Below are positions 6,486 through 53,734 of a stretch of 64,000 nucleotides of DNA, one piece after another. Under the pieces are notes generated by a model, which had not been told where the DNA came from, searched no databases, and worked only from the letters and a program-made list of their open reading frames with translations. The number at the start of each line of letters is the position of its first letter. The first letter of the stretch is position 1. This stretch comes from Planctomycetota bacterium (GTDB taxonomy: Bacteria; Planctomycetota; UBA1135; GCA-002686595): assembly GCA_029259635.1 (NCBI GenBank), contig JAJDEU010000037.1, positions 124,001 to 188,000 on the forward strand, given 5' to 3'. A program made the translations under genes and the position numbers.

Positions 6486-6489
6486 GCCC

Positions 6490-7257
6490 ATGAGCTACAA
6501 AAACACAGAGAAGCGGAGCCGTATGGCGATGAGCAGGAGCTTTAATCCGGGGCGAGTGGCGACGCTTGCCTTCAGCCTACTCGCGCTCACCTCCAATCCG
6601 ATCTTCGCGCAAGACGTTCCCGAGCGGCCGCCGCTACTGGGCGAACTGCCGGAGCCCAAGGATTCGCAACAAGAGATCTTGGACCTGTTCGCGAAGGTCG
6701 AACGCAACCTGAAACGCATCGACCGGATTCTCTCCGACGCGGCCGCGGGTGAGATTCCGCTCGATCAACCGGAAGAGAGCGGGCTGGCGGATTTGCTCCG
6801 TGAGACTCAGAAGGCGAACCAGAGCAACATCGACGACATCGATCGCATTCTCGAGATCTCCCAGAACTCGAAGTCGTCGAGCCAAGGTCAACAGGGCCAG
6901 CCCGACTCTCCACCGCAAGAGGGCGACAGTCCGCTCGACAAGCCGCGTGATGGAACGCCGCAAGAACAGGAACAGACTCCGGAGACGCCCGACAACCAGT
7001 CGGAACCCGACTCGGAACCTTCCGAGCCGGAGGACAGTGGCGAAGATCCCGAGACGGAGAGCGAGAACGAGAAGAACGCACCGCCGACTCCCACCGAACC
7101 GGGCTCCCCTTCCGGAGTGAGTCCGGACGGCGAGCGCTGGGGCGAGCTGCCGCCGCGCGTTCGCGAGGTCTTCCGCAGTCAAGGCGGCGGCGACCTGCCC
7201 ACGCAATATCGCGACTGGATTGACTCCTACTACCGTCGGCTCAATCAGCGCCCGTAA
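6490..7257 (+). CDS. Small secreted protein with acidic linker and conserved C-terminal motif
   Basis: The ATG at 6490 was chosen although the frame is open from 6409, because it follows the previous stop by 4 bp and gives a signal peptide (hydrophobic core ATLAFSLLALTSNPIFAQ). The 255-aa product has a helical segment (about 45-125), a Pro/Glu/Gln/Ser-rich linker of low complexity (about 130-215), and a compact C-terminus, GERWGELPPRVREVF, then a PTQYRDWIDSYYRRLN stretch. That ending recurs in planctomycete proteins of these loci and is probably the functional contact site. It sits between the coiled-coil gene and the second squalene-cyclase-like gene and should act with them in the envelope. 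Its precise function is unknown. Confidence 0.75.
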   Translation: MSYKNTEKRSRMAMSRSFNPGRVATLAFSLLALTSNPIFAQDVPERPPLLGELPEPKDSQQEILDLFAKVERNLKRIDRILSDAAAGEIPLDQPEESGLADLLRETQKANQSNIDDIDRILEISQNSKSSSQGQQGQPDSPPQEGDSPLDKPRDGTPQEQEQTPETPDNQSEPDSEPSEPEDSGEDPETESENEKNAPPTPTEPGSPSGVSPDGERWGELPPRVREVFRSQGGGDLPTQYRDWIDSYYRRLNQRP

Positions 7258-7270
7258 TCCGCCTCCACCC

Positions 7271-8455
7271 ATGCCCTCTCTCGCCCCGAGCCCTTCGCCT
7301 GCGACCCGGTTTCCGACCGCCCTCGCCTTCGGCCTGTGCGTTCTCGCTTTACCGGTCTTCGCGCTGGACTCCATGGCCGCGCTGGCACCGCTCGACGAAG
7401 ACTCGCGAGCGCTCTCGGCCGGAGCGCTCCCGGACGACTCCCAGCGAGCCTCCGATCCCCTCGAACGAGCCCTCGATGATTCGATTCAGCGCGGCCTCGC
7501 CTGGCTCGTCAAAGGCCAAGCGAAAAACCTCGACGGATCGATGGCCGTCGGTGCACGCGATCAAACGCCGGTGCCCATCGCATCCACAGCTCTGGGAGCG
7601 CTCGCGCTCATGGCCGGCGGGAACAGCTACAACCGCGGCCTCTACGGAGCCGAGGTCGCCCGGGCGGTTGACTACTTGCTCGCGCATTGCGATTTAGATC
7701 CGGCCAGCCCGTCTTTCGGTTACATCGGTCGCGAGGGTGCACCGGAAGCCGTTCGCATGCACAGCCACGGCTTCGCAACTCTCGCCTTGGCGCAGGCCTT
7801 CAGCACCTCCCACCGAACCGCGAACGGCAAACAACTCAAGCGAGCGCTCGAAGCCGCCGTGCGACGGATCGAGCGCAGCCAAGGCCGCGAAGGCGGCTGG
7901 TTCTACAACCCGATTCGGAACACACGCCACGAAGGGTCGGTCACGATCTGTCTCGTCCAAGCGTTGCGCGCCGCTCGCGATGCGGGCATTCGCGTGGACC
8001 CGAGTTGCGTCCAGCGCGCCGAAGCTTATGTCGTCCAGTCACAAAAAGAAGACGGACTCTTCGCCTACGAGATCTACAACCCCGACGCCCACACCAGCGT
8101 CGCGCTGACCGCCGCCGGAGTTTCAACGCTCTACTCTCTCGGCGAATATGCCGGCAAGGTTGTGGAGAGCGGCATGACGGCCATTTGGCGCGAGCTCGAG
8201 CTGCGCGAAAGCGGCGAAGGTAAATCCGCGCGCTTCCCCTACTACGAGCGGCTCTATCTCTCGCAGGCCATGTGGCAGCACTCCGAACTGGAGAATTTCG
8301 AGCGTTGGTCGGATCGTGAGTTCAAGCGCATGCTCGCGAACCAACAGACCGACGGCCACTGGTCCGACGACCGGTACGGAGACTCCTACGCGACGGCGAT
8401 CAACTGCTTGGTTCTCGGAATGAGCCAGGAGCTCTTGCCGATCTTCCAGCGCTGA
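7271..8455 (+). CDS. Secreted squalene-cyclase-like repeat protein (paralogue B)
   Basis: This 394-aa product starts at ATG 7271, 13 bp after the preceding stop; the frame is open from 7220 but the later start gives the shorter signal sequence (hydrophobic core ALAFGLCVLALPVFALDS). Repeats include GLAWLVKGQAKNLDGSM, RSQGREGGWFYNP-like, VQSQKEDGLFAYE and LANQQTDGHWSDDRYG, the (Q)W-type repeats of the alpha/alpha-barrel prenyltransferase/squalene oxidase fold. Its relation to the gene at 196-1341 and their shared LPIFQR ending point to an old duplication that now brackets the operon. It is the last gene on this strand before the convergent larE, whose stop lies 3 bp away. Confidence 0.85.
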   Translation: MPSLAPSPSPATRFPTALAFGLCVLALPVFALDSMAALAPLDEDSRALSAGALPDDSQRASDPLERALDDSIQRGLAWLVKGQAKNLDGSMAVGARDQTPVPIASTALGALALMAGGNSYNRGLYGAEVARAVDYLLAHCDLDPASPSFGYIGREGAPEAVRMHSHGFATLALAQAFSTSHRTANGKQLKRALEAAVRRIERSQGREGGWFYNPIRNTRHEGSVTICLVQALRAARDAGIRVDPSCVQRAEAYVVQSQKEDGLFAYEIYNPDAHTSVALTAAGVSTLYSLGEYAGKVVESGMTAIWRELELRESGEGKSARFPYYERLYLSQAMWQHSELENFERWSDREFKRMLANQQTDGHWSDDRYGDSYATAINCLVLGMSQELLPIFQR

Positions 8456-35902: not shown

Positions 35903-37108
35903 CTACAGCCCTGCGCCGAAGGACGAGGGCGGCTCTTGAGCCGAGGGTTCCGGCGCTGCGGGTTTCGGCTCGGGCTTGGCGCGTTCCGGCTTGGGAGCGC
36001 GTGCCTTCTTCGGCTTTGCCGGTTCGGACTGTTCCGCGAAGATGCCTTTACCGAATCCCGAATCAGCCTGCGTTGCTGCGGGCTTTTCCGTCACGCGTGC
36101 CGCCGGCTTCACCGAGTCCTGATCCGATCGCGGCGCACGTTCTTCGCGGCCGCTTCGCTCTGTCTGGCGTTCGCCTCCGCGCCCGCCGCCACTGGATCGA
36201 CTGCCACCGGATCGACTGCCGCCCGAACGGCCGCCGCCCGAACGACTGTCGCCACCACGGCTGCCTTCCGTCCGGCCGCCGCCGTCGCGTCCGCGACTCG
36301 AACGGCGCGGTGCTGATTCGCGTTGGGAGCTCGAGCGCTCGCGACGAGCTTCCCCTTCACCGGATGCTTCGACAGGAGCTGCTTCGCGATGGTCGGAGCT
36401 CGGCCGCTCTTCGCGTTCCGAGCTTCGGCCACCACGTCCGCGGCCGCGACCGCGTCCACGCCCATCGCCGCGCCCGTCACCGCGTCCACGGTCTCTTCCG
36501 CGATCTCGCCCACGGCCGCCACCAGAGCGCCCGCTGCGTTCCGCCGGATCCGTTCCGTCCGTGTGAACTGGACCGACTTCGAGCAAGTTCGTGGGAATCT
36601 CTTCAGCGAGGAAGAGCGATTTGCGGTCGTAAAAATTGATCCCGTCTTCCCAACCGTCGAGCGCGTAAATCGTGATGACGCTGTACTCGACGGCAGAGCG
36701 TCGGCCAGTCTCCATCGCGTCTTCCGAGGTGAGCGCGAGGTGCAAGAAGCGTCGCCTTCCACTTCGTAAGCCATTCTCAACGGCGCGCTCGGCCTCTCGT
36801 GCGGGCAAGCCCACATACAAGAGCTCCGGAGGCTGAGCCGGCTCGCCGGGTTCGACCGCGATCGAGTGCCCGTAGAGCGCTCGGATCTTGCCATTGACTA
36901 TTTCGTAGCGGGGACGGTTTCCCTCCTCGATCGCCTGTTTGAGATCCTCGGCTTCGAGGTCGTCGTCGACGCGCTCAGAGAGAGCGTCGAGAACATCCTC
37001 GATATCGGCATAGCCAAAAGCATCTACTTCGAGATCGAACTGCTCCGGTTGATGGCGGAGCATGAAGGCCAGAAGGCGCGTGACGCGCTCGGTGAGACTT
37101 TGATTCAT
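35903..37108 (-). CDS. RNA 2'-phosphotransferase (Tpt1/KptA)-like protein with RG-rich tail
   Basis: Tpt1/KptA enzymes remove a 2'-phosphate from RNA using NAD+. Residues 1-182 of this 401-aa protein match: winged-helix part with LLAFMLRHQPEQFDL (12-26) and FGYADIEDVL, then KIRALYGHSI (74-83, conserved R and H) and the ADP-ribose lobe. The usual NAD-contacting LYHGT is altered to LYVGL (97-101), so activity or substrate use may differ. From about 190 to 401 the protein is a disordered Arg/Gly/Ser-rich tail, then Lys/Pro/Ala-rich, unlike the roughly 180-aa bacterial enzymes; such tails usually bind RNA. No 2'-phosphate-forming splicing pathway is known in bacteria, so the natural substrate is open. 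Confidence 0.82.
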   Translation of the reverse strand: MNQSLTERVTRLLAFMLRHQPEQFDLEVDAFGYADIEDVLDALSERVDDDLEAEDLKQAIEEGNRPRYEIVNGKIRALYGHSIAVEPGEPAQPPELLYVGLPAREAERAVENGLRSGRRRFLHLALTSEDAMETGRRSAVEYSVITIYALDGWEDGINFYDRKSLFLAEEIPTNLLEVGPVHTDGTDPAERSGRSGGGRGRDRGRDRGRGDGRGDGRGRGRGRGRGGRSSEREERPSSDHREAAPVEASGEGEARRERSSSQRESAPRRSSRGRDGGGRTEGSRGGDSRSGGGRSGGSRSGGSRSSGGGRGGERQTERSGREERAPRSDQDSVKPAARVTEKPAATQADSGFGKGIFAEQSEPAKPKKARAPKPERAKPEPKPAAPEPSAQEPPSSFGAGL

Positions 37109-39870: not shown

Positions 39871-41037
39871 ATGACGGCATCTAATCCCGAAGAACCGGCG
39901 ACATCGGAGAGCTCCGACGCCACCGAGCGACCGACATCCGGGCGACGACTGCGCGGCCTCCTCGTCAAGCTCGCACTCTCGCTGCTCTCTGCCGCGCTCT
40001 TGTTCGTGATCGCAGAAGGAGTCGCGAGCATCACTCTGCTCGTACGCGACCTCGACGAATCCGGAGTCACGCTCGCGGAGCACCGGCACACGACCTACGA
40101 CCCGCTGCTCGGTTGGGTCAACGAGCCCAACCAATCGATCCCCAACATGTACGGACCCGGCCTCGGGTTGCACACCAACTCGCTCGGCTTTCGCGCCACG
40201 CACGAGTTCTCGAAAAAAGTCCCCGCGGGAAAGATGAGGATCGTGTGCAGCGGCGATTCCTTCACGCTCGGCTACGGGGTCTCCGACCAAACCACCTGGG
40301 CCAGCCAACTGGAAGTTCTCGAGCCGAAGCTGGAGACGGTCAATATGGGCCAGGGCGGCTATGGCGCGGATCAAGCCTATCTCTGGTACAAGCGCGACGG
40401 TTCGGAGCTGGAGCACGACGTACAGCTGTTCGCCTTTATCACCGGCGACTTCATTCGCGCCGGACGCTCGACCAACTTTGGACTGCCCAAGCCCGTACTG
40501 ACTCTCAACGACGGTGAGCTCCAGACGACGGGCATTCCCGTATCGCGTTTGCCCTACCTCGTCCCCTACTTCGTTCACAACCGTCGCCGGTTCTCCGAGC
40601 TGAACATTCTGCAGCTTGTCAACGGCCCAGAGGTGCCGAACGCGCAGCGGGGCGTCGCGATGACGGAGATTCAATTGCGCGAGACCATGGTCGCGATGTT
40701 TCGAGAACTCAAGCGACTCAACGAAGAGCGCGGAAGCCGGCTGGTCGCTGTGCACCTGCCCGGCGAGAGAGACCTCACGAATGAAAAGTCCAAGAGTTGG
40801 GCCGAGTTCCTGACCGTCGAGCTCGAAAACATCGGCGTCCCCTATCTAAATTTAATCGAGGACCTCGGAGAGGTTCCCGAGCCTGCGATTCCGTCGCTCT
40901 TTATCCAGCCGGGTGAGATCGATCTCTCCGGCGCAGCGGGGCATTTCACCGTGAAAGGCAATCGCTGGGCCGCGACTCAAATCCTCAGGCGGCTGAGCGA
41001 GCTCCCGAACTTCGCTGAGGAGCTCGCCCATCGCTAG
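39871..41037 (+). CDS. Membrane-anchored SGNH/GDSL-like hydrolase
   Basis: The 388-aa protein has one membrane segment (about 33-52, LALSLLSAALLFVIAEGVAS) and a periplasmic SGNH domain. The block I nucleophile is S130 in IVCSGDSFTLGYG, an Asn/Gly block follows in NMGQGGYGADQA, and the block V His is H358 in GHFTVKGNRWAA. Family members are O-acetyl or other esterases acting on glycans and lipids. It precedes the three DUF3604 genes by 64 bp on the same strand and probably is the first gene of their operon, so ester removal and phosphoester or sulfate chemistry may be coupled at the surface. The exact acyl group is unknown. Confidence 0.82.
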   Translation: MTASNPEEPATSESSDATERPTSGRRLRGLLVKLALSLLSAALLFVIAEGVASITLLVRDLDESGVTLAEHRHTTYDPLLGWVNEPNQSIPNMYGPGLGLHTNSLGFRATHEFSKKVPAGKMRIVCSGDSFTLGYGVSDQTTWASQLEVLEPKLETVNMGQGGYGADQAYLWYKRDGSELEHDVQLFAFITGDFIRAGRSTNFGLPKPVLTLNDGELQTTGIPVSRLPYLVPYFVHNRRRFSELNILQLVNGPEVPNAQRGVAMTEIQLRETMVAMFRELKRLNEERGSRLVAVHLPGERDLTNEKSKSWAEFLTVELENIGVPYLNLIEDLGEVPEPAIPSLFIQPGEIDLSGAAGHFTVKGNRWAATQILRRLSELPNFAEELAHR

Positions 41038-41101
41038 CTCCGACGATCGAGCCCGCTGGAGACTCCTGACGACGAGAGAGTGGCTCCCGCGCGTTTCCAC
41101 A

Positions 41102-43909
41102 GTGGGCGGCCTCGTCCTCGCCTTGCTGGTCAGTACGAGCTGCGCGCCTTCGAAGGAACCCGCGTCGCCCTCCTCCGAACCCTCCGAGGCTTCGATTCGC
41201 TGGTGGTCTAAGCCCGGTCAAGTCGCGCTCGAGCCGAACGCCGTCCTCGATAATGAAGGACGCGTGTGGGCGACCTGGATCAACAAGGCCGGGAAGAGCG
41301 CCGAGCTGGTGCTCGCTTGTCGCGACGCTTCCGGCGAACTTGTTCAGTCCACCCTAGCGAACCCGGACGGATGGATAGCCGCGCCGGCCTTGGCGCCGAT
41401 GGCCGAGGGCGTCCTGTGCGTGTGGGAGACCGGGGACGATCGAGGCGAAGGGCGGCGGCTCCTCGCGCGCACAGCAACACTCAGCCCGGACGGAATTTTG
41501 GTCGGACCCGTGGAGGTGCCCTTCGCCCAGCCCGCATTGACACCCAAGTTGTGCCGAACGGGCGCCGATCGCGTCGAGCTCATCTGCGTGGCCGCCGAAA
41601 GCTCCGAAGCCGACCTCGCTCTCCTTCACCTGACGCGCAGCTCAACGGGCTGGTCCTCCCCTCGACCGATCCTCCCGTCACCCGGTGATACTTGGTCGCC
41701 CGTCTTGGCCGCGGACAAGCTCGGACGGCTTCACGTCGCCTGGGATTACTTCGATGGCACGACCTTTCGCGTCGAGTACGCCGTTCTCGACGGCGGTGCC
41801 GAGGTGGAACGAATCCCACTCGATAACGGCGCCGGCTATCAAGCTCATCCGGCCATCGCTCTCACCGACACCGGCGCGGCCTGGATTGCGTGGGAGGAAG
41901 CGGCGCTCTTTGGGCAGCTCGGCGGCTTGCGAAACGAGCGCAGCCTCGGGCTCGCGTTCGTCGACAAAGGCCAAGTGAGCTGGGCCGCAGAGTCGAGCTT
42001 GCCGTCGGCCCTCTTTCGCTCCGACTTTCCAAAACTCTCCTGGAGCCCAGAAGGCCTGCTGATAACCACGCGCGGGCTCGGTCCATCCTTCGCCACTTCC
42101 GCTCGCCGAACCAACGCGGCTGCCGGCTCGGATCCCGAGCGCGAGCACACACACTTTCGCGACCCGATCGCGCGAAGCCGCGTCTACAGGCACGAGCGCT
42201 GGCGCTTCTTCGCTGCGTGGTGGACGCGCGTGATGAGCTTTGATGACGCGGGCAACCCCACGCTCGTCGAGCTTCCGCAGACCGAAGGCGACAACCTCGC
42301 GACCGAGACTCTGCTCATGACCGAAGGCGGGCCGAAGCTGGTGTTCGCCACCGATCTCCGCAGCACGATTGTCCCCACACCAAATCCCTTCGAATCCTCC
42401 ATCGAAGCTCCCTGGCGAGTGGGCTCGATCGACCTGAATCCCGCCACGGGTTTTCCGAAGCTCGTCGAGGTTCCCCCGGACACCGAAGCCAAAGCCCCGC
42501 CGGCGACAACCGCGAGCGAGTTGCGCGCGAAAGTCACGGCAAAGAAGGGCGAGCCCAAGGTCTACTTCGGCGACCTTCACCGCCACACGCACCTCTCCCG
42601 TTGTGCGGGTTCGAAAGACGGCATCGCCACCGATGTCTATCGCTATGCCCGCGGTCCCGGTGCGCTCGACTTCGTCGCGATTACCGATCACTTTCAACAC
42701 CTGCAACCCTGGTCGTGGTGGCGCAATCAACGCGACGTCCATCGCTTTCACGCGCCGGGGCGCTTGGTTGTCTTTTCCGGCCTCGAACGTGCGAGCAAAG
42801 AGCGCGGACACCGCAACGACATCTTTCTCGACGCTTCCAACCTCAAGTTCACGCCCCGCGCTTGGAACGACTTTCCCGAAACGGGCTCGCGCTGGAAGTC
42901 GCCTCCCGTCGCGAACACGATCTCCATCCCGCACATGATGGGTCGCAGCGGAAGTCCCTGGCGGTGGCGTTGGATGAAGAGCGACCTGCACCGCCTCTTC
43001 GAGATCTATCAGGGCGCGCGCGGATCCTATGAAGGCCCTCATCAGCCGCTCGCCGCATTCGATCTCGATGTGCCGGAGGCCAGTGTCGGCAGCGGGTTGT
43101 CGAGAGGACACCTGTTCGGTTTCGTCGCCGCCTCGGATCACAGCGCCACCGCATCGGGCCTGGCTGGTGTTTGGGCCGACGAGTTCACGCGCGCCGCGAT
43201 CTTCTCCGCGCTGCAAGCCCGAAGCAGCTTTGCGACCACCGACTTCGCCCGCGCGGAGAGCGCCATCGGACCGCTCCACTCGGGAGCCGACGGAGCGGCC
43301 TCGGCTTCCGCTCCGCTGGTCATCCGTGCTCGCGGAAACGCACCGGTTGCCTCCGTCGAGGTCTTCAAGAATGGAGCCTCCTGGCGCAGGCTGGGCGGTC
43401 CCGCCGGCGCTCCCGAGCTGGTCGTGCTCACGGTACGGCGCTACGGACCGTATCCCGCCAAGCCCATGCACCTCGACCTTCAGAATGCCGAGCTCGCGAG
43501 CTGGCATGTACGTCGCCGAGGCGAGATCAGTACCGTGATTCAACGACTCACCCAAAGCTCCCTCTCGATCATCAAAGGCACCTTTGCTCTCGACCTCGTC
43601 TTTGAAGTCCAGCCGACGGCCGAGCCCGTCTCTCTCGACCTCACCTTCGGCGAGACGGAGTCCAAGACTCTGCTCTCGACAATCGCTCTCGACCGCACCG
43701 CCAACCTAGAGCCTCCCTTCCAGCGCGAACAGTTCTGGCGCATCGGCCCATCGCTGAACGCCGTGGAGTTGGATCAAGCCTTCCCGGACGAGGATCGCAA
43801 GCCCGGTGACACCTACTACGCGCGTGTCGTGTTCGAAGACGGAAACATCGCGTGGACGAGCCCCATTCGAGTGCGCGAGTTCGAAGCGGAAGCGGCGGAA
43901 GACCAGTGA
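41102..43909 (+). CDS. PHP-superfamily/DUF3604 lipoprotein 1
   Basis: The 935-aa product starts with GTG at 41102 and has a lipoprotein signal (LVLALLVSTSC). Residues about 35-480 form repeated Trp/Asp-rich blades (SIRWWSKPGQVALEPNAVLD, AWIAWEE), i.e. a beta-propeller. A PHP-type metal site follows: DLHRHTH (491-497), ITDH (D529, H530), IPHMM (H611) and SDH (D679, H680). A beta-sandwich C-terminus ends YYARVVFEDGNIAWTSPIRV. PHP hydrolases use two or three metals and often split phosphoesters, but DUF3604 substrates are unknown. It is the first of three related genes; the next starts inside its stop. Confidence 0.85.
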   Translation: MGGLVLALLVSTSCAPSKEPASPSSEPSEASIRWWSKPGQVALEPNAVLDNEGRVWATWINKAGKSAELVLACRDASGELVQSTLANPDGWIAAPALAPMAEGVLCVWETGDDRGEGRRLLARTATLSPDGILVGPVEVPFAQPALTPKLCRTGADRVELICVAAESSEADLALLHLTRSSTGWSSPRPILPSPGDTWSPVLAADKLGRLHVAWDYFDGTTFRVEYAVLDGGAEVERIPLDNGAGYQAHPAIALTDTGAAWIAWEEAALFGQLGGLRNERSLGLAFVDKGQVSWAAESSLPSALFRSDFPKLSWSPEGLLITTRGLGPSFATSARRTNAAAGSDPEREHTHFRDPIARSRVYRHERWRFFAAWWTRVMSFDDAGNPTLVELPQTEGDNLATETLLMTEGGPKLVFATDLRSTIVPTPNPFESSIEAPWRVGSIDLNPATGFPKLVEVPPDTEAKAPPATTASELRAKVTAKKGEPKVYFGDLHRHTHLSRCAGSKDGIATDVYRYARGPGALDFVAITDHFQHLQPWSWWRNQRDVHRFHAPGRLVVFSGLERASKERGHRNDIFLDASNLKFTPRAWNDFPETGSRWKSPPVANTISIPHMMGRSGSPWRWRWMKSDLHRLFEIYQGARGSYEGPHQPLAAFDLDVPEASVGSGLSRGHLFGFVAASDHSATASGLAGVWADEFTRAAIFSALQARSSFATTDFARAESAIGPLHSGADGAASASAPLVIRARGNAPVASVEVFKNGASWRRLGGPAGAPELVVLTVRRYGPYPAKPMHLDLQNAELASWHVRRRGEISTVIQRLTQSSLSIIKGTFALDLVFEVQPTAEPVSLDLTFGETESKTLLSTIALDRTANLEPPFQREQFWRIGPSLNAVELDQAFPDEDRKPGDTYYARVVFEDGNIAWTSPIRVREFEAEAAEDQ

Positions 43910-46680
43910 GACGATCGACATCGATCCACGTCGGCATAGCCATCGGCTTGCTCGCGACGGCAGGCCTTGTGAACTGCGGAACCGACGCTCCTCCGGCGCG
44001 TGAAGGCGCGCGGCGGGCAGCCACTCTTAATTCCTCCGCAACGCTCGAGCTGCCGACGAAGTGGTGGACGACAGCACAGCGCAGCTCGATCGAGCCGACC
44101 AGCGCACTCGACTCGAGCGGTCGATTGTGGACCGCCTACCTCGAGGTCAAGAGCACCCAAGCCGGAGAACAAGTCTCCCTCATCGCCAGCGTGCAAGAGC
44201 CGGATGGCAGGATGGTGACCATCCGTGTCGAGCCAAACTCTAGCCGTGCGCCTGCTGCCCCGAGCCTGTGCAGCTTTAATGACCAGGTGTACCTCGTCTG
44301 GGAAGCCGATCATGGCGAAGAGCGCGGCCTGTTCGCTCGAGCCCTCGGCGGCGGCCAAGGTGGATTCGAGCTCGGCTCCAAAAAAGTCATCGCCACCGGC
44401 CGAGTGCTGTTTCCCACCGTTCAAGAGACGAGCGACGGCATTCTTGAGGTGGTCTACCAAGCGTTAGCGGGCGAACAGTACGAGATTCGGCACGCGCGAC
44501 GCGGCATTGACGGGAGTTGGTCTTCGCCAACGCGACTGTTCGAAGCGCGCGGCGACTATTGGCGACCGCGCAGCGCCACCCGCGGAGACGGGGCGCTTCA
44601 CGTCGTCTGCGACTCCTTCGACGGAGATCGATTCGTGGTGGACTACGCGCTCCTCGAGAACGAAGAGCTCCCGGTTGTGATTCGCGTCGCGGAGACGGCG
44701 GGCTACCAAGGCATGCCGAGCCTGGCGCTCGATTCGCACGGGCGAACGTGGGTTGCTTGGGAAGAAGCCGATCAGTTCGGCGAGATCGGAGGCCTGCGAG
44801 CCGAGCGCCGGCTAAAGCTCGCCGCCATTGAGGGCACCCAGATCTTCAACGTTCCCGGCTCCGCACTGCGTCCCGGCGGCAACCGTCTCACGCGCGCCGA
44901 CTTTCCGCGTGTGGCTTGCGGCCCGAACGGCCTGCTCTTAACCACGCGAACCACGGGCGAGAGCTTCGTCCCCAAACACGCCAAGGAGTACTCGGAGTTC
45001 TACACCTCTTGGTTCACCCAAGTGCTCAGCTTCGATGCGAAGGGACGAGCCCAGCTCGGCGTGTTGCGAGCGACCGACGGCGACGGCGAGGCGACCGAAC
45101 AGCTGCTCGCCTCGCGCTCTGGCGATAAAATCCTCTGCGTGTTTTCCGCCGACGGGCGCAGCCGGCAACAACCGAAGCCCGCCGCGTTCGAGGCTCCCAT
45201 CGAGACGGACTGGCGAGTCGGCAAGGTCGAGCTACCCGCGCCGAGCGGCTTCCCCGAACTGGTCCCGCGCCAGAAACAGACGCCGCCCTACGCGCCGGCC
45301 ACGCACAGACCGACGAAACGCGCTCCCGGCGAACGCGCCCTATTCGGCGACCTGCACCGCCACACCCAACTCTCCCGATGCCAGGGCACTCTCGACGGGA
45401 CCAGCCTGGATGCCTATCGCTACGCGCGCGGTCCGGGCCAGCTCGACTTCATCTCGATTACCGACCACTACCAACACCTGACGGCGCTCAGCCACTGGCG
45501 CACGCTGCGCGATGTCGAGCGCTTTTATGCGCCGGGTAGCCTCGTCACTTTCCCTGGAGTCGAGCGCGCCCTGCGCGAACGCGCCCACGTCAACGAGATC
45601 TATCTCGATCCCGTTGAAGTTCCCGGGAGCATCGATTCCTTTCACCGCGAACCCGACGTGAAGGGGTCGGTTCCGATCGAGCACACGGTCGCGATTCCGC
45701 ACATGATGGGCATGAAGGCCGCGCCCTTTCCGTGGAAGTATTTCCGCAGCGACTTGCACCGCGTGATGGAGGTCTATCAGGGCCTGCGCGGCTCCTATGA
45801 AGGCGCGGGTCTGCCCTATGAAGCGATGAATCGCGAGCTGGACAGCTCGTCGATGTCCGAGGGTATTCGGCGCGGACTGCACTTCGGTTTTATCGCCTCG
45901 TCGGACCACCGTGCGAGCTCGACCGCTTATGCAGGTGTCTGGGCGACGGAGCTCACGCGCGAGTCCGTCTTCGAAGCGCTGCGCGCCCGGCGAACCTTTG
46001 GCGCGACCTCGCAGTTCGCCGCCGACCTCAAGCTCGGTTCGCTCGCGATGGGCGCGCGCGGCAGCGCGAGCGCCGAAGATCCGCTCTGGATTCGCGTGCA
46101 GAGTCCCGCGCCCATCGCGACTATCGAAGTCATCAAGAACGGCGAGACGCTAGAGTTTATACAGGGAGAGGGCCCCACCGAGCTCGTCGCGATCTCCTGT
46201 CGACGCTATCAAGCGCTGGGGACCGAGCCGCCCGACGAACTGAAGGTCAGCCTCAAGGGCGGCCGGATTCTGAAGGCGACGGAACGCATGCACGGCAGAA
46301 CGGGCGCAACGCTCGCGCTCGATTCGGGAACCGTGTCGCTGCGAAAGAAGATTCCGTGGATCGACTTTGTGCTTGAGATCGAGCCCACTCCCTCGGAGAG
46401 CGGTGGCCCGGTACTCGAGCTCCAACTCGGCGACTTGCGCGATTCCGTTCCGCTCAACGAGATCCCCGCCGGGCGCTCCATCAAGCACGCGAAGAACTTG
46501 GTTCGCGAATCGATTTGGCGCATCGGCAAGCCGTTCCTCCCTGCTGTAACCCTCTCGGGCTTTGAGATCGCCATCGAAGACCCGAACCGCGCTGCCGGTG
46601 ACTCTTACTATGCGCGCATCACCTTCACCGACGGCAACGTTGTCTGGACTAGTCCGATTCGCGTGACGAGCCTCGAATAA
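43906..46680 (+). CDS. PHP-superfamily/DUF3604 lipoprotein 2
   Basis: The GTG at 43906 (GTGA overlap with the previous stop) gives a lipoprotein signal peptide ending GLVNC, so it was preferred to the ORF start at 43852. The 924-aa product has the same architecture as its neighbours: propeller (TKWWTTAQRSSIEPTSALD; TWVAWEEADQFGEIGGLRAE), PHP core with GDLHRHTQLSRC, ITDH, IPHMMGMKAAP and SSDHRA, and the C-terminal sandwich ending YYARITFTDGNVVWTSPIRV. Metal ligands are kept. Sequence differs enough from copy 1 for the copies to have separate substrates. It is followed 4 bp later by copy 3. Confidence 0.85.
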   Translation: MRRSTSIHVGIAIGLLATAGLVNCGTDAPPAREGARRAATLNSSATLELPTKWWTTAQRSSIEPTSALDSSGRLWTAYLEVKSTQAGEQVSLIASVQEPDGRMVTIRVEPNSSRAPAAPSLCSFNDQVYLVWEADHGEERGLFARALGGGQGGFELGSKKVIATGRVLFPTVQETSDGILEVVYQALAGEQYEIRHARRGIDGSWSSPTRLFEARGDYWRPRSATRGDGALHVVCDSFDGDRFVVDYALLENEELPVVIRVAETAGYQGMPSLALDSHGRTWVAWEEADQFGEIGGLRAERRLKLAAIEGTQIFNVPGSALRPGGNRLTRADFPRVACGPNGLLLTTRTTGESFVPKHAKEYSEFYTSWFTQVLSFDAKGRAQLGVLRATDGDGEATEQLLASRSGDKILCVFSADGRSRQQPKPAAFEAPIETDWRVGKVELPAPSGFPELVPRQKQTPPYAPATHRPTKRAPGERALFGDLHRHTQLSRCQGTLDGTSLDAYRYARGPGQLDFISITDHYQHLTALSHWRTLRDVERFYAPGSLVTFPGVERALRERAHVNEIYLDPVEVPGSIDSFHREPDVKGSVPIEHTVAIPHMMGMKAAPFPWKYFRSDLHRVMEVYQGLRGSYEGAGLPYEAMNRELDSSSMSEGIRRGLHFGFIASSDHRASSTAYAGVWATELTRESVFEALRARRTFGATSQFAADLKLGSLAMGARGSASAEDPLWIRVQSPAPIATIEVIKNGETLEFIQGEGPTELVAISCRRYQALGTEPPDELKVSLKGGRILKATERMHGRTGATLALDSGTVSLRKKIPWIDFVLEIEPTPSESGGPVLELQLGDLRDSVPLNEIPAGRSIKHAKNLVRESIWRIGKPFLPAVTLSGFEIAIEDPNRAAGDSYYARITFTDGNVVWTSPIRVTSLE

Positions 46681-46684
46681 TTGA

Positions 46685-49402
46685 ATGAGCGCTCCCACAA
46701 AAACCACGACTCTCGGCGCCCGCGGACTCTGGCTGGTTGCGCTCTTGTCCTCGGCCATTCTGTTCTCACCCGAGACTCCGGAGAAACCGACCTGGGTCAG
46801 CGACCCCAAACAAGCGGCCTTCGAACCCACGGCTTGCATGGACAGCTCCGGCCATTTGTGGGCTCTGTGGATTTCAACGGGCCGCGCGAAAGAGACCACG
46901 GCGCGCATCGCCGGGACGGTCCGGCTCGGGAGCATTGCAGTTGCCGAGTTCACGATCGAAGACGCCGGCTTGTTTCCCGCTGCGCCACACCTCGCCGCTT
47001 GGAAGAGCGGTGCCTATCTCGTTTGGGAAGCGGGCGGCGATGGCGCGAGACAGCTCTTCGGTCGCGAGCTCACGCTTGCGGAGTCGAGAGACGAGGTCAT
47101 CCTCGGAGAGCTCGAGATCCTTCCGGCCGGGACGCCCCGCCCGCTCGTCCCGAGACTCGCCGCTCGCAAAGACTCGCTCGCGCTCGTCTATCAAGGACTG
47201 CGCGGGTCGAACTACGAGCTGTTCTTCGCGACACGTGATGCGTCGGGTTGGTCGGAGAGCCGAGCGCTCACCACGACCGACACAGACGAGTGGAACCCGC
47301 GCGTGGCGGTGGATGGCGCCGACGGTCTGCACCTGGTTTGGGATTTCTTCGACGGGGAGAGCTTCGAGGTCGCCTACGCTCGGATCGAAGGAGGAAAACT
47401 CGAAGCCCAGCGGCTCGTCGCGAGCGGCGCTCCATTTCAGGGTTATCCCGAGTTGGCGGTGGAGACGGATGGCACGGCGTGGATCGCGTGGGAAGCGGGT
47501 CCCCAGTTCGGAAAGCACGGCGGCCTGCGATCGGCTCGCAATCTCGGTTTGGCCAAGCTCTCGCGATCGGATGCGCCCGAAAACTCCGGCGCGCTCGCAC
47601 TCGAACGGCTCGCCCCCGGAAGCCTCATGGCCGACGTCAGCCAACGCGGATTTGCGCGCCCCACTCTCACCACGAACGGGCTGCTCCTCACCTACAACTT
47701 CCCCGTTCGCGCAAACCGCAAACGCGGCCACCTGTTCACCTCGTGGATGACCTCCGTCGTCGAGTTCGCGGATGGCCAATCGGTAGAACGGCGCGTTCCG
47801 ATGTCCGACGGAAACAGCGACCCCGACTCCGTTCTCGTCGCCGACCCGGCTGGCGGTGCCTGGCTCGTCTTCTCCTCCGATCGCCGCCGCGAACAATTCG
47901 ACCAGGTCTCGGCTTGGAGTGACTCGATCGAACGCCGCCCGCACGTCGCCATCCTCCGCGTGAACTCAGATGGCGGGTTCCCGCAACTCTTGGAGAGCAC
48001 TCCGCTCCCCCAGACGGAACCCAAAGAGAGCGTAAATCGCGCCGCGAAGCCCACCCCGGGCGTCTACTTCGGCGACCTCCACCGCCACACTCATCTGTCG
48101 CGCTGCGCTGGCGCCAAAGACGGAACGATTCTCGACGCCTACCGCTACGCGCGCGGACCGGGAGCTCTCGACTTCATCGCGATCACTGACCACTTCCAAC
48201 ACATGAAGCCCTGGTCTTGGTTCTGCTCCAAGCGCGACGCGATTCGTTATCACGCTCCGGGCAGTCTGGTCGTGTTGTCGGGCGTCGAGCGTGTGCGCGC
48301 GAAACGCGGACACTACAACGACATCTATTTTGATCCGGCCGAGGTCCCCTTTGACGTCGACAGTTGGATGCGGCCGCCCGCGCGCTTTGCACCGGCTCCG
48401 CCCCAACACGTGATCTCGATCCCGCACATGATGGCCGTCGACGATGGAACGGGATTCGACTGGGACGAGTTCGCCGAAGACCGCACGCGCCTGTTCGAGA
48501 TCTATCAAGGCAAGCGCGGCTCCTACGAAGGTCGGGGCTTGCCCTATGAAGCGGACGACCGCGTCGAGGAAGAGGTGGCTCTCGCGAGGGGGTTCGAGCG
48601 CGGCGCTCACTTCGGATTGATCGCCGCGAGCGATCACGCCTCCAGCTCGACTTCCTTCGCCGGGTTGTATGCCGAGGAGCTCACCCGAGAGTCCATCTTC
48701 AAGGCGCTGCAGAATCGCCGCTGTTTCGCCGCCACCGTCGCGCGCCCGCTCGACGCTTCGCTGGGAAATCTCGAGATGGGATCGAGCGGCGAACTGACCG
48801 AAGAGCCCATCTTTCGGGTCAGCGTGCCCGAGAACCCCGCCGCGAGCGTCGCCTACGTCGAGTTGGTCCGAGATGGCTTCACGCACGAGCGCTTGGCCGG
48901 CTCCGGTGACGTTGAGAACTGGATTCTCTCGCTGCGCAAACTCCCGCTAGCACACCGCGGCTTGTTAACCGTCGAAGTCGAAGGCGGCGAGTTCGAAGGC
49001 GTCCGGCCGCGGCGTCCCGACGCGCCGGGTGCCCGCATCCTCGCCCAGGAGAAACACCTGCTGAAGCTTCGCCGCGAGGACTTCATTCTGATCGACTTCA
49101 GCGTAGCGATTCGTTGGGACCCGGCGGCGGAGGTGCAGAGCGTGACCGTTCGATCTGGCGACCTCGAAGCCGAGGTGCCGCGAGCTTCCGTTGAGCTCGG
49201 GACTTCGCGTTCGCTTAAGCGAGGTGACCTGCGAGTGCAGGCTTGGCGGCAGGGCGCTCTTCTGGAACCTTCGAGCGACGAGTACAGCTTTCGCGTGAGC
49301 GGCGAACTTGGGCATAGTTATTACGCGCGTATCGCGTGGTCCGATGGCAATCTGGCCTGGACGAGCCCGATTCGAATTCGTTCGAATGAGGAGGACGAGT
49401 GA
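46685..49402 (+). CDS. PHP-superfamily/DUF3604 exported protein 3
   Basis: This 905-aa protein starts at ATG 46685, 4 bp after copy 2. The N-terminal hydrophobic stretch LWLVALLSSAILF serves as signal or anchor; unlike its neighbours it lacks a lipobox Cys. Propeller repeats (AWIAWEAGPQFGKHGGLRSA), the PHP motif FGDLHRHTHLSRC, ITDHFQH, IPHMM and ASDHASS, and the end YYARIAWSDGNLAWTSPIRI match copies 1 and 2. Membrane attachment therefore differs between the three, perhaps placing them in different compartments. It overlaps the sulfatase-like gene at the stop/start junction. Confidence 0.85.
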   Translation: MSAPTKTTTLGARGLWLVALLSSAILFSPETPEKPTWVSDPKQAAFEPTACMDSSGHLWALWISTGRAKETTARIAGTVRLGSIAVAEFTIEDAGLFPAAPHLAAWKSGAYLVWEAGGDGARQLFGRELTLAESRDEVILGELEILPAGTPRPLVPRLAARKDSLALVYQGLRGSNYELFFATRDASGWSESRALTTTDTDEWNPRVAVDGADGLHLVWDFFDGESFEVAYARIEGGKLEAQRLVASGAPFQGYPELAVETDGTAWIAWEAGPQFGKHGGLRSARNLGLAKLSRSDAPENSGALALERLAPGSLMADVSQRGFARPTLTTNGLLLTYNFPVRANRKRGHLFTSWMTSVVEFADGQSVERRVPMSDGNSDPDSVLVADPAGGAWLVFSSDRRREQFDQVSAWSDSIERRPHVAILRVNSDGGFPQLLESTPLPQTEPKESVNRAAKPTPGVYFGDLHRHTHLSRCAGAKDGTILDAYRYARGPGALDFIAITDHFQHMKPWSWFCSKRDAIRYHAPGSLVVLSGVERVRAKRGHYNDIYFDPAEVPFDVDSWMRPPARFAPAPPQHVISIPHMMAVDDGTGFDWDEFAEDRTRLFEIYQGKRGSYEGRGLPYEADDRVEEEVALARGFERGAHFGLIAASDHASSSTSFAGLYAEELTRESIFKALQNRRCFAATVARPLDASLGNLEMGSSGELTEEPIFRVSVPENPAASVAYVELVRDGFTHERLAGSGDVENWILSLRKLPLAHRGLLTVEVEGGEFEGVRPRRPDAPGARILAQEKHLLKLRREDFILIDFSVAIRWDPAAEVQSVTVRSGDLEAEVPRASVELGTSRSLKRGDLRVQAWRQGALLEPSSDEYSFRVSGELGHSYYARIAWSDGNLAWTSPIRIRSNEEDE

Positions 49403-50853
49403 TGCGTGCCGCAAAGAAACAGAACCAAGGGAGGCTCTCGCTCCGTCAGTTGCTCTTCGTGGGAGCGATCGCTCTTGCGGGCTGTGACAGCAAAGTCTCG
49501 GACTCCTCACCTCTTCCGGATGACCGTTCGGACTGGAATCTGGTGATCGTGTTGCTCGACGCCCTGCCCGCGTCGGGCGTGGGCGCGTGGGGTTATTCGC
49601 GCGACGTGACGCCCAATCTCGACGCCTTTGCAGAGAGCGGCGTGCGCTTTGACCAAGCTTACGCGGGCGCTTCCTACACGCTGGCCTCGGTCTCGTCCAT
49701 GTTCACGGGACTCTCGCCGGAAGCGCATCGCGTCGTCGGACTCTCGAGCAACGTCCTCGCCGCCAGACACGCAACTCTCGCGGAGGCCTTTCGCGATCGC
49801 GGCTTCGCGACCGGTGGATTCAGCTCGAACCCCCACATCACCGAGGCCGGCGGCTTTCACCAGGGCTTTGACGAGTTCCGTCACTACGGCCGCGATCAGC
49901 TCGACTATCACGGCATCTCCATGGGGTTGGAGGAAGACTCGCTGCGCTGGTGGAACGCCCATGCGGAAGAGCGTCGTCTGCTCTACGTGCACGTTCTTCC
50001 GCCACACCAGCCCTATGACGCCGCCGAACCTCACGCGAGCTTGTTCGGCGCGGACCTAACCAAGCGCGAGCTCGGCTTCACCGAGTATCTCGTCGAAGCG
50101 GACAAGGCGGGCACCGTCAAGCACGGAAGTAAACTGGCCGCCAAGATTCGCTCGCGCTATGACGCCGGCCTGCATCAAGCGGATGAGTTCCTCGGCAAAT
50201 ACCTTCAAGCCCTGAAGGACTCGCCGGGAGGCGAGCGCACCGTCTACGCGGTTCTTTCGGATCACGGCGAAGCCTTCGCCGAACACGGTCGCCTGCTTCA
50301 CGGCTCGACCGTCTATGACGAGATGACGCACGTGCCGCTCGTCATCTCGTGGCCCGGCGCGCAGCCGAGCGTAGTGGAGGAGCTTGTCAGTACCGTGAAT
50401 CTCGCGCCGACTTTGTGCGAGCTGTTCGACCTACCGTTCCCCCGCGGCGAGTCCTTTCTCAGCGCGGTCTGGACGGACTATGAATCGCCACCGGTGTTGT
50501 CACGCACGGTCGGCGACGCGCCGGTGTGGTCGCTGCGCACGCGAGAGTGGACCTTCCTGAAGCAAGCGAAGCAGAACATTCGCTTGCTCTATCATCGCGA
50601 GACCGATCGCGGCGAGACGAACGAGTTGTTGCTGCGAGATCAGAGTGCCGGTGGCGGTGAAGAACCGGGGCGTTCACAGGACGAGCTCGAGGGCATCGCA
50701 AAAGAGCTCTCGAAACGGATGAAGCAGGCGCTCGTTCGGGATCGCGGACTCGCGAGAGGGGTGCCGCGCGAGCGAAACGACGAGCATCGGTCGGCGGTCG
50801 AGGAGCTCGGGTACGGCGGCGACGACGAGCCGGATCCGGTGCAGGACGAATAG
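49402..50853 (+). CDS. Sulfatase-fold lipoprotein with non-canonical active site
   Basis: The 483-aa product begins at ATG 49402, whose A is the last base of the preceding TGA, and has a lipobox (IALAGC, Cys28). The alkaline phosphatase/sulfatase superfamily fold is shown by IVLLDAL (D53), GASYTLASVSSMFTGL (90-104), SDHGEAFAEHG (DH 287-288, H295) and HGSTVYDEMTH (H300, H310). At the formylglycine site the usual C/S-x-P-x-R is replaced: T93 lines up with Cys, A95 with Pro and V97 with Arg. Thr is the nucleophile in phosphodiesterase- and phosphoglycerol-transferase-type relatives, so it may be a phosphoesterase, not a sulfatase. It ends the DUF3604 operon. Confidence 0.82.
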   Translation: MRAAKKQNQGRLSLRQLLFVGAIALAGCDSKVSDSSPLPDDRSDWNLVIVLLDALPASGVGAWGYSRDVTPNLDAFAESGVRFDQAYAGASYTLASVSSMFTGLSPEAHRVVGLSSNVLAARHATLAEAFRDRGFATGGFSSNPHITEAGGFHQGFDEFRHYGRDQLDYHGISMGLEEDSLRWWNAHAEERRLLYVHVLPPHQPYDAAEPHASLFGADLTKRELGFTEYLVEADKAGTVKHGSKLAAKIRSRYDAGLHQADEFLGKYLQALKDSPGGERTVYAVLSDHGEAFAEHGRLLHGSTVYDEMTHVPLVISWPGAQPSVVEELVSTVNLAPTLCELFDLPFPRGESFLSAVWTDYESPPVLSRTVGDAPVWSLRTREWTFLKQAKQNIRLLYHRETDRGETNELLLRDQSAGGGEEPGRSQDELEGIAKELSKRMKQALVRDRGLARGVPRERNDEHRSAVEELGYGGDDEPDPVQDE

Positions 50854-50863
50854 AGCGGGGGCG

Positions 50864-50888
50864 AGAGCGGTGGCTGGCGCTCCGCTCT
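50864..50888 (+). terminator. Terminator of the SGNH-DUF3604-sulfatase operon
   Basis: AGAGCGG (50864-50870) pairs perfectly with CCGCTCT (50882-50888) 11 bp after the sulfatase-like stop, followed by ATTTCC. The rhodanese gene on the opposite strand ends at 50907, so the hairpin may serve both sides. Confidence 0.5.
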
Positions 50889-50906
50889 ATTTCCGCCCAG
50901 CCGCGC

Positions 50907-51226: not shown

Positions 51227-53734
51227 TCAGTGACCCGCAATCTCAAGCGGAGCGAGATCCATCTCACTCGGAATCGGCACACCCAGGAGGTCGAGCGCCG
51301 TCGGCGCGATGTGCAAGAGGTTCGGACCATTCTCCGGCAGCGTCACCTTGCGGTTGCAGAAGAACAAGCCGCGGACGTGATCGCGAGCGACCGACGGGTG
51401 GCCGCCGGACCAGGGTGACTTGTTGTCGGTGTAGGTCGCACCGGAGACCACGTTAGCAAATTCATCCTCTTCGAGCCGCAATCCTCCGCCGGTCGTCGTC
51501 CAAGCGACGCGATAGCCGGGCGCGAAGCCGAGCACCATATCCGGGCCGATGCCCATGTAGTCACCGGAGTGCTCCTCGGTGAGGATGTAGCTCTCAAGCA
51601 CCGTGTTGACGTCGTACTCTTCGTCGCGCGCCAGCTTGAGCTTCTCTTGAATCTCTTTCAGGAGCGCCGGCTTCTCCTCGGCAGTCACAATGCCGAGGTC
51701 CGGGCGTTTCTTATTCGAGCTGCCGGAGTCGGTTCCATTGCCGAACATCGCGGATCCATCTCCGATTCGGTTGCTGTCTCCGATCTCGTTGATGTAGATG
51801 AATCCGAGCCCCACTGAATAGGCCTTCGTCTTCGACCAATCGACGGCCTTGAAGCCGCTCTTTTGTTTCGTCGTGGCGTCCTCCTTAAGGACCATGTAGC
51901 CGTTGTCGATCAGCCAGTTATTCACACTGACTTGGCGGCGGAAAGTTTGAAAGCCGTGGTCGGCGCAGAGCAGCAGCGTGTCACTCGGCTTCAAGAACTC
52001 ATCCATCACACGGCCGACGATGCGGTCCGCTTGGCGGTAGATCTCGGGGATCACGTCCTTGAGCGCGACTTGCTTCCCGAAGAAGGTCACCTCGCGGCTC
52101 GCCTCCTCTTCCTTGTACATCGGGTGCTTCTCGTCGTAGTACTGATACATCATGTGCTGCACGCGATCGGGCGTACTGAACACGGACATGAACAGCTCCC
52201 AGTCGCCGCGAGCGAGCTGCGCGTAGGTCACGCGCTCCCGCCACTTCATGGTGAACTCGATATCTTCGAGCAGGGTCTCGGATGAGATCTCGCCATCCTT
52301 GAACGGCATCGTCGTGCAGGCCCAGCCGTAGGTCTCAAAGGTTCCGTGAGAGGTCTCGACAAGCTCCTTGGAGAACTCGTGCGGCTGACTGATCGACTGC
52401 CAGAACGGGGGCGCTTCCGGATCGAGGTCGAGCGTGTTGATGAACAGCTTGAACTGCCCCTCGAGGGAGACGAGCTTGCAGCGCGTGACCGCATTCACCT
52501 TGAGGAGCGGATTGAGCACGAAGGTCAGGTGGTAGAAGTCCGACCACTCGCCGACCTTCAAGACCTGCTCGGTGCCGTCCATACTGATCGCTGCCGTATT
52601 CTCGCCGCGCTTCTCAATCACTAGCGGGACGGTGATGCGCTTGGACCTGACTTTCTTCAGCTCGGCATCGAGTTCGTCTTGGAGAGAATTCAGCTCTAGG
52701 GAGCGCGGGTAGCTGAGCGACGTATCTTTGCGCTCCTCTTTGATCGCATCGAGTTGCTGATCGATTCGCTCGCGATTCCAGAAATCCAGAGGTCCATAGA
52801 TCTCGGTCTCGATCTTGTCGTTCACGAAGTCGACGCGGAAGATCTGGCCCGCCGTCGAGCTGGTCTTGTACTTCGGCGGGCGGTCGGTCATGTCTTGATC
52901 ATCGGTGTAGATGAACCAAGTACCGATTCCACCGCGCGCATCCGGCACGCCGAGGCCCGCTAGCACGCGAGTTCCTTCAGGCGTGGGCATGTCGAAGGCC
53001 TGCGCGGCCTCAAGCACGATGCTCTTCACACCGGCGTCACCCGCATAGTCCCAAAAGTTGCGCGTCACGTTGACGTTGGACATGCGCTTGAACTTGGAGG
53101 GAAAGAAGCCGCTCGCTTCGAAGCCGGCATAGGCTCCCCCCGCTCCGAGGATCAGTGCGAGCGGTACCGCGACGACCATCTTCAAGCGCAGCAAGCCGGC
53201 GAAGATGATGATGAAGAAGACGAGCACGGCGCCGCCGACGGCTGCCCCCATCGTCGTCGGCTCCCACTGGGGCATCCAGACGTTGTCGAACTCCTCGATC
53301 CCCTTCTCGTCCGAGATATTGAGGAAGCCGAAGTCCGCCTTCGGGACTCCGCTACCCGTATAGGTGCGCTTCATGAATCCCGACACCGCGTTCTTCCCGG
53401 GGTTCTGTCCGGTGTTGAGGCTCGCCCACGATGTCGGCGACTCGTTGGGCACCGAGGTGCCCAGTCGCGCGAAGGTGCCCTGCTCGCGAAGGCGCTGCAT
53501 GTTGGGCAGCTCACCCGCGTCCATCATGTTCTCGACGGTGCGACCATCGCCGCCGTCGAAGCCGATCACGATGACGCGACCGTCTGGCTCTTCGCCAGCC
53601 GGGCTAACTGCCGAGTTGGCCTCTGAAAAGCCACTCACCGAAGCGAGCGCGAGCAGAGTGAGAATCGGCAGTCCGAAGCGGGCGCTTCTCAAGGATCGAA
53701 GAAGGCGGAAGGGGGACGTCACGTTTAACTTCAT
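51227..53734 (-). CDS. Alkaline phosphatase superfamily (nucleotide pyrophosphatase/phosphodiesterase-like) protein
   Basis: This 835-aa protein has a signal peptide (FGLPILTLLALASVSGFSEA) and metal/nucleophile residues of type I phosphodiesterases: IVIGFDGGDG (D60), SPTSWASLNTGQNPGKN with Thr101 as nucleophile, and LLLCADHGFQTF late in the chain. Two membrane helices (about 165-210, GAVLVFFIIIFAGLL and AVPLALILGAGGAYAGF) interrupt the domain after the nucleophile, an unusual place. A beta-rich insert (about 260-480) follows, then the remaining catalytic segments. It should act outside the cytoplasmic membrane on phosphodiester or phosphonate bonds; the substrate is unknown. It lies next to the DUF3604/sulfatase-like operon but on the other strand. 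Confidence 0.85.
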   Translation of the reverse strand: MKLNVTSPFRLLRSLRSARFGLPILTLLALASVSGFSEANSAVSPAGEEPDGRVIVIGFDGGDGRTVENMMDAGELPNMQRLREQGTFARLGTSVPNESPTSWASLNTGQNPGKNAVSGFMKRTYTGSGVPKADFGFLNISDEKGIEEFDNVWMPQWEPTTMGAAVGGAVLVFFIIIFAGLLRLKMVVAVPLALILGAGGAYAGFEASGFFPSKFKRMSNVNVTRNFWDYAGDAGVKSIVLEAAQAFDMPTPEGTRVLAGLGVPDARGGIGTWFIYTDDQDMTDRPPKYKTSSTAGQIFRVDFVNDKIETEIYGPLDFWNRERIDQQLDAIKEERKDTSLSYPRSLELNSLQDELDAELKKVRSKRITVPLVIEKRGENTAAISMDGTEQVLKVGEWSDFYHLTFVLNPLLKVNAVTRCKLVSLEGQFKLFINTLDLDPEAPPFWQSISQPHEFSKELVETSHGTFETYGWACTTMPFKDGEISSETLLEDIEFTMKWRERVTYAQLARGDWELFMSVFSTPDRVQHMMYQYYDEKHPMYKEEEASREVTFFGKQVALKDVIPEIYRQADRIVGRVMDEFLKPSDTLLLCADHGFQTFRRQVSVNNWLIDNGYMVLKEDATTKQKSGFKAVDWSKTKAYSVGLGFIYINEIGDSNRIGDGSAMFGNGTDSGSSNKKRPDLGIVTAEEKPALLKEIQEKLKLARDEEYDVNTVLESYILTEEHSGDYMGIGPDMVLGFAPGYRVAWTTTGGGLRLEEDEFANVVSGATYTDNKSPWSGGHPSVARDHVRGLFFCNRKVTLPENGPNLLHIAPTALDLLGVPIPSEMDLAPLEIAGH

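Follow-up and report, generated by a model that had tools for sequence, protein, structure and literature searches.

PHP enzymes include phosphoesterases, and phosphoethanolamine transferases of the EptA/MCR type use a threonine nucleophile. Within the PHP superfamily, DUF3604 (Pfam PF12228) was widespread among the loci found here (Planctomycetota, Acidobacteria, Actinomycetes, and others), and in the literature searched just one paper named it, in a table row only. In CehA, a PHP-type carbamate-ester hydrolase of a related family, four histidines with an HxH pair among them are needed (PMC8292978); because CehA hydrolyzes carbamate esters, a PHP fold does not imply phosphate chemistry. We analyzed a window of 64,000 nucleotides from a planctomycete genome of 5.5 Mb in 62 contigs, in which three DUF3604 genes (copies A, B, and C) stand in a row before a sulfatase-superfamily gene (SULF). 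The three copies share with DUF3604 proteins the metal motifs HxH, TDH, H, and SDH, and all three score above the Pfam cut-off (41.3, 36.6, and 34.8 bits; cut-off 20.4). The Pfam model covers only short PHP stretches, whereas these proteins of ~900 aa add an N-terminal propeller of ~400 aa and form a tandem triplet of conserved order. The PHP-type metal motif with its HxH pair is likewise common to the CehA/McbA carbaryl hydrolases; however, copy B, which matched the CehA/McbA model NF038032 weakly over the PHP region, is not a member by the curated cut-off (33.1 bits against 80), and copies A and C gave no match.

Gene Organization and Export Signals

The five open reading frames that the preliminary description had placed here were all recovered on the forward strand (table 1). 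The spacing of 4 bp or less attributed to the whole row held for A-B-C-SULF but not for the SGNH-hydrolase-like gene, which ends 64 bp before copy A, or 28 bp if copy A starts at the alternative CTG. Inspection of start codons placed the GTG of copy B within the stop of copy A (GTGA, a 4-bp overlap), left a 4-bp gap between B and C, and gave a 4-bp overlap between C and SULF; A-B-C-SULF is translationally coupled. The alternative CTG, which is preceded by GGAG, would give copy A its best signal peptide, a complete lipoprotein one. The hairpin reported behind the sulfatase-fold gene is present, with perfect 10-bp arms, a folding z-score of only -1.4, and a short T-tract. A sigma-70 promoter scan found no promoter, and the 64-kb window contained no tRNA or Rfam match.

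Table 1. Features of the DUF3604 operon and its surroundings (window coordinates)
Feature	Coordinates	Strand	Remarks
SGNH-hydrolase-like membrane-anchored protein	39871..41037	+	Neighbor, outside the conserved unit
Copy A, DUF3604/PHP, predicted lipoprotein	41102..43909	+	Alternative start CTG 41066; orthologs in G021 and G015
Copy B, DUF3604/PHP, predicted lipoprotein	43906..46680	+	ORF open from 43852; likelier start GTG 43906; orthologs present
Copy C, DUF3604/PHP	46685..49402	+	Signal peptide without Cys; propeller, PHP domain, C-terminal beta domain; orthologs present
PHP metal site of copy C: H466, H468, D502, H503, E535, H543, H581, E605, D650, H651	48080..48637	+	Invariant or nearly so
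SULF, sulfatase-superfamily lipoprotein, Thr94 at nucleophile position	49399..50853	+	Orthologs in G021, G015, and G042
Inverted repeat at operon end, between convergent genes; possible weak terminator	50849..50891		Perfect 10-bp arms

A lipobox had been noted in two copies and as absent from the third. In line with this, a cysteine follows the signal peptide in copy A (LVSTSC) and in copy B (LVNC, with a noncanonical N at -1) and is absent from copy C, and the orthologs in all three genera described below repeat this pattern.

The upstream SGNH gene had been counted as part of the operon, a proposal that did not hold. In two other genomes carrying the operon (G015 and G021), a symporter gene lies directly upstream of copy A in its place; a relative with 50% identity in G021 is on the operon's contig but ~14 kb away, beyond lgt, and a second relative (47%) is on another contig, two genes away from a sulfatase-like gene. 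We therefore rejected the SGNH gene as a member of the conserved unit. It shares the GDSF and GH(F/Y) blocks with the LA_2490-type SGNH esterases (NF047475) but scored only 50 bits in that model (cut-off 325); its GDSL score (21.7 bits) is below the Pfam cut-off of 32.9, and the Ser and His of its blocks are conserved while the catalytic Asp of the triad is not.

A Conserved Metal Site and Diverged Propellers

The metal ligands are intact in copies A, B, and C, as first reported, and nearly all of 133 homologs keep them. In the numbering of copy C, H466, H468, H503, E535, H581, and E605 were each found in at least 131 of the 133, followed by D650 (127), H651 (120), and H543 (119); position 502 is D in 121 and E in 11. 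H506 varies among homologs and is thus not a core ligand. Across nine A/B/C orthologs, invariant columns made up 64/230 of the PHP domain, 32/383 of the propeller, and 5/118 of the C-terminal part. Copy-specific active-site residues were rejected, since none of the PHP columns was copy-specific among these nine orthologs; the whole protein had only three copy-specific positions, little above the 0-2 of label-swapped controls. From this domain-wise conservation we infer that the three copies share the same chemistry and differ in recognition.

The AlphaFold model of copy C had a mean pLDDT of 79.5 and a pTM of 0.85. Its best PDB matches in Foldseek were beta-propellers, aligned to the N-terminal half, and included glycan-active as well as other propellers; in particular, the propeller resembles BT3686, a rhamnose-glucuronate lyase, and putative neuraminidases at ~10% identity. 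No PHP structure was among the 50 matches listed, and a sequence profile found no PDB match up to E = 1; the assignment of the PHP domain and C-terminal sandwich comes from Pfam, motifs in the sequence, and secondary-structure prediction.

A Sulfatase-Superfamily Lipoprotein with Threonine at the Nucleophile Position

SULF had been described as a noncanonical sulfatase-fold lipoprotein, which its lipobox (LAGC) and its whole-domain match to the Pfam Sulfatase family (153 bits, cut-off 25) bear out as far as superfamily and export are concerned. D54, T94, H203, D288, H289, and H301 were invariant in the set aligned, and D54, D288, H289, and H301 among them belong to the conserved catalytic D/H set of the sulfatase/alkaline-phosphatase superfamily. 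Compared with the formylglycine sulfatases (S1, PF00884), SULF thus keeps the catalytic D and H residues but has Thr for Cys/Ser and Val for Arg in the C/S-x-P-x-R motif: its TLASV aligns to SQPSR of PDB 5g2t, with Thr at the formylglycine position. The four SULF orthologs seen all have Thr at the nucleophile position and also lack the motif Arg. Given this substitution and the missing Arg, classical sulfatase chemistry is unlikely for SULF, and we rejected true sulfatase activity because there is no formylglycine motif. SULF has an SDHGE..H block similar to that of the phosphoethanolamine transferases, but it is a lipoprotein without a membrane domain, and at 36.7 bits it falls outside the general phosphoethanolamine transferase model (cut-off 500). 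Its structure model (pLDDT 63) was too poor for a fold search.

Origin and Age of the Triplet

A-B-C-SULF was found in identical order on a single contig in G021; in G015, the set is split between two contig ends, with A-B on one and C-SULF on the other. No further genome with such a triplet was found among 154 genomes of the class. Orthologs of the host genome (G000) and G021 are 45-48% identical, and paralogs within G000 are 35-39% identical; the SULF orthologs are 54-55% identical. In a maximum-likelihood tree of 15 sequences, clades A, B, and C were supported at 99/100, 98/98, and 98/97. Because each copy forms one clade across genera, the triplication is older than the split of these genera. 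The preliminary description had held that a recent lineage-specific expansion lacking conserved neighbors, or loss of the metal ligands in most homologs, would speak against one surface pathway. Neither was found: the ortholog tree rejects a recent tandem expansion, SULF is a conserved neighbor in three genera, and the ligands persist as given above. At least three genera have kept the four-gene set A-B-C-SULF together.

The tandem arrangement alone is not unique, because elsewhere, too, two distant DUF3604 genes overlap in tandem (L113:9428-15432). A fourth, C-type copy in the host genome (L042:6336-9026, on contig C53), which groups with C in the 15-sequence tree, adjoins a PMT_2-type glycosyltransferase gene. 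The DUF3604 matches in G105 and G106 (L167 and L169) contain single in-frame stops and are possible pseudogenes, assembly errors, or frame ends.

A Fixed Site in the Family Backbone

The operon occupies one fixed site in a gene block recognizable across the family, which runs lgt ... MATE transporter, phosphodiesterase, rhodanese, the site, SDF symporter, and KptA. The other genera examined have either different genes at this site or none. In G024 and G075, ~100 bp separate the phosphodiesterase and symporter genes, and the operon is absent between rhodanese and KptA in G062, G004, G084, and G019. In G042, the site carries a SULF ortholog with a GMC oxidoreductase and a 361-aa protein, and in G041 and G014 the latter two without SULF. 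The presence of SULF in G042 without DUF3604 at the site indicated that SULF and DUF3604 are not obligate partners. The GMC oxidoreductase and the ~361-aa protein, which has no Pfam match, span L197:9569-12361, L198:727-3533, and L199:246-3091 in G042, G041, and G014.

DUF3604 Neighborhoods and Probable Function

A sulfatase-superfamily gene was present within 6 kb at 11/19 closer-clade DUF3604 loci, from which duplicates between collections had been removed by hand, and at 11/70 loci of more distant DUF3604 proteins. Fisher's test gave p = 0.0005, or p = 0.004 when each genus was roughly reduced to a single locus, the only treatment of relatedness. The contrast may be somewhat inflated, since some of these neighbors went into the SULF profile used. 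In the closer clade, this neighbor is usually immediately adjacent. In another planctomycete, with a more distant DUF3604, a single ORF of 1744 aa (L098:8021-13255, JAJFFB010000132.1) joins an S1 sulfatase, a propeller-PHP DUF3604 protein, and a second S1 sulfatase, with the canonical motifs NCAPTR and VCAPSR. Some distant DUF3604 loci hold Wzy_C ligase or PMT_2 glycosyltransferases. At L160, a gene for an O-antigen ligase (Wzy_C) plus TPR protein lies between two sulfatase-superfamily genes (4819-7992) and adjoins an oppositely oriented DUF3604 gene.

A-B-C-SULF probably performs one chemistry at the cell surface. The substrate put forward in the preliminary description, a polymer with ester plus phosphate or sulfate groups, is hypothetical. 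Our preferred reading, which we hold tentatively and at somewhat less than even confidence, is an ancient operon of exported, metal-dependent hydrolases that modify the cell's own surface glycan. The products would be attached to the cell envelope or released from it. Copies A, B, and C would have a PHP metal chemistry in common, the hydrolysis of esters or phosphoesters; with propellers and C-terminal domains that have diverged, they would most likely act on the same type of bond in differing chemical or spatial contexts within a single class of glycan, extracellular or of the envelope. SULF would be an alkaline-phosphatase-superfamily enzyme with a Thr nucleophile, for which a phosphodiester or other phospho-substituent is a more likely substrate than sulfate. 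We infer the bond type, the common substrate, and the cell's own envelope rather than food as its place; an envelope or matrix glycan is suggested by the kind of propeller, the association with sulfatase-superfamily genes, and the glycosyltransferase and ligase neighborhoods, the last of which come from distant DUF3604 relatives.

It is possible, though rather unlikely, that the operon instead serves nutrition by breaking down an external polysaccharide that is sulfated or phosphorylated; the DUF3604 proteins would then take off ester groups in partnership with SULF. The glycan-type propeller, 13 FGE-sulfatase-domain matches in the host's own genome, and the L098 fusion are consistent with this; the canonical sulfatases of that fusion point to a sulfated glycan, possibly to its degradation, and so weigh against our preferred reading. 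However, the annotated neighbors include no glycoside hydrolase, lyase, or SusCD/TonB-type transporter, SULF has no formylglycine motif, and the operon is located in a family-wide gene backbone; modification of the cell's own surface glycan was favored over food degradation. Small-molecule ester or carbamate hydrolysis, in CehA-like detoxification or nutrient scavenging with SULF nearby by chance, is improbable: the subthreshold CehA_McbA match of copy B and the histidine requirement of CehA agree with it, but a ~400-aa propeller and a conserved three-copy order with SULF fit a single small substrate poorly. That the copies are redundant and adjacent only through the syntenic backbone is least credible, since, although the PHP domain has no copy-specific residues, orthologs are more alike than paralogs and the lipoprotein pattern is kept in three genera.

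Returning to the surface-glycan reading, we suggest, with considerable doubt, that the Planctomycetota family of the host, which also contains Poly30 (which we take to be the strain called Saltatorellus ferox), may have a dedicated surface-glycan system, in which three propeller-PHP enzymes of one chemistry and different recognition act with a Thr-type sulfatase-superfamily enzyme on an undescribed phospho- or acyl-substituted polymer. The old, order-conserved triplet, its constant partner, and the L098 fusion narrow the search for DUF3604 substrates to the chemistry of extracellular glycans, and A, B, C, and SULF provide a defined four-protein set for assay.

Genes Flanking the Operon

On the reverse strand, the window encodes a KptA/Tpt1-type RNA 2'-phosphotransferase whose C-terminal tail is long and RG-rich (35903-37108); many genera of the family keep its homolog close to the operon site. 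Also on the reverse strand, positions 51227-53734 encode a member of the Type I phosphodiesterase family into which a membrane segment appears to be inserted; homologs of this protein were found in 74/81 family genomes.
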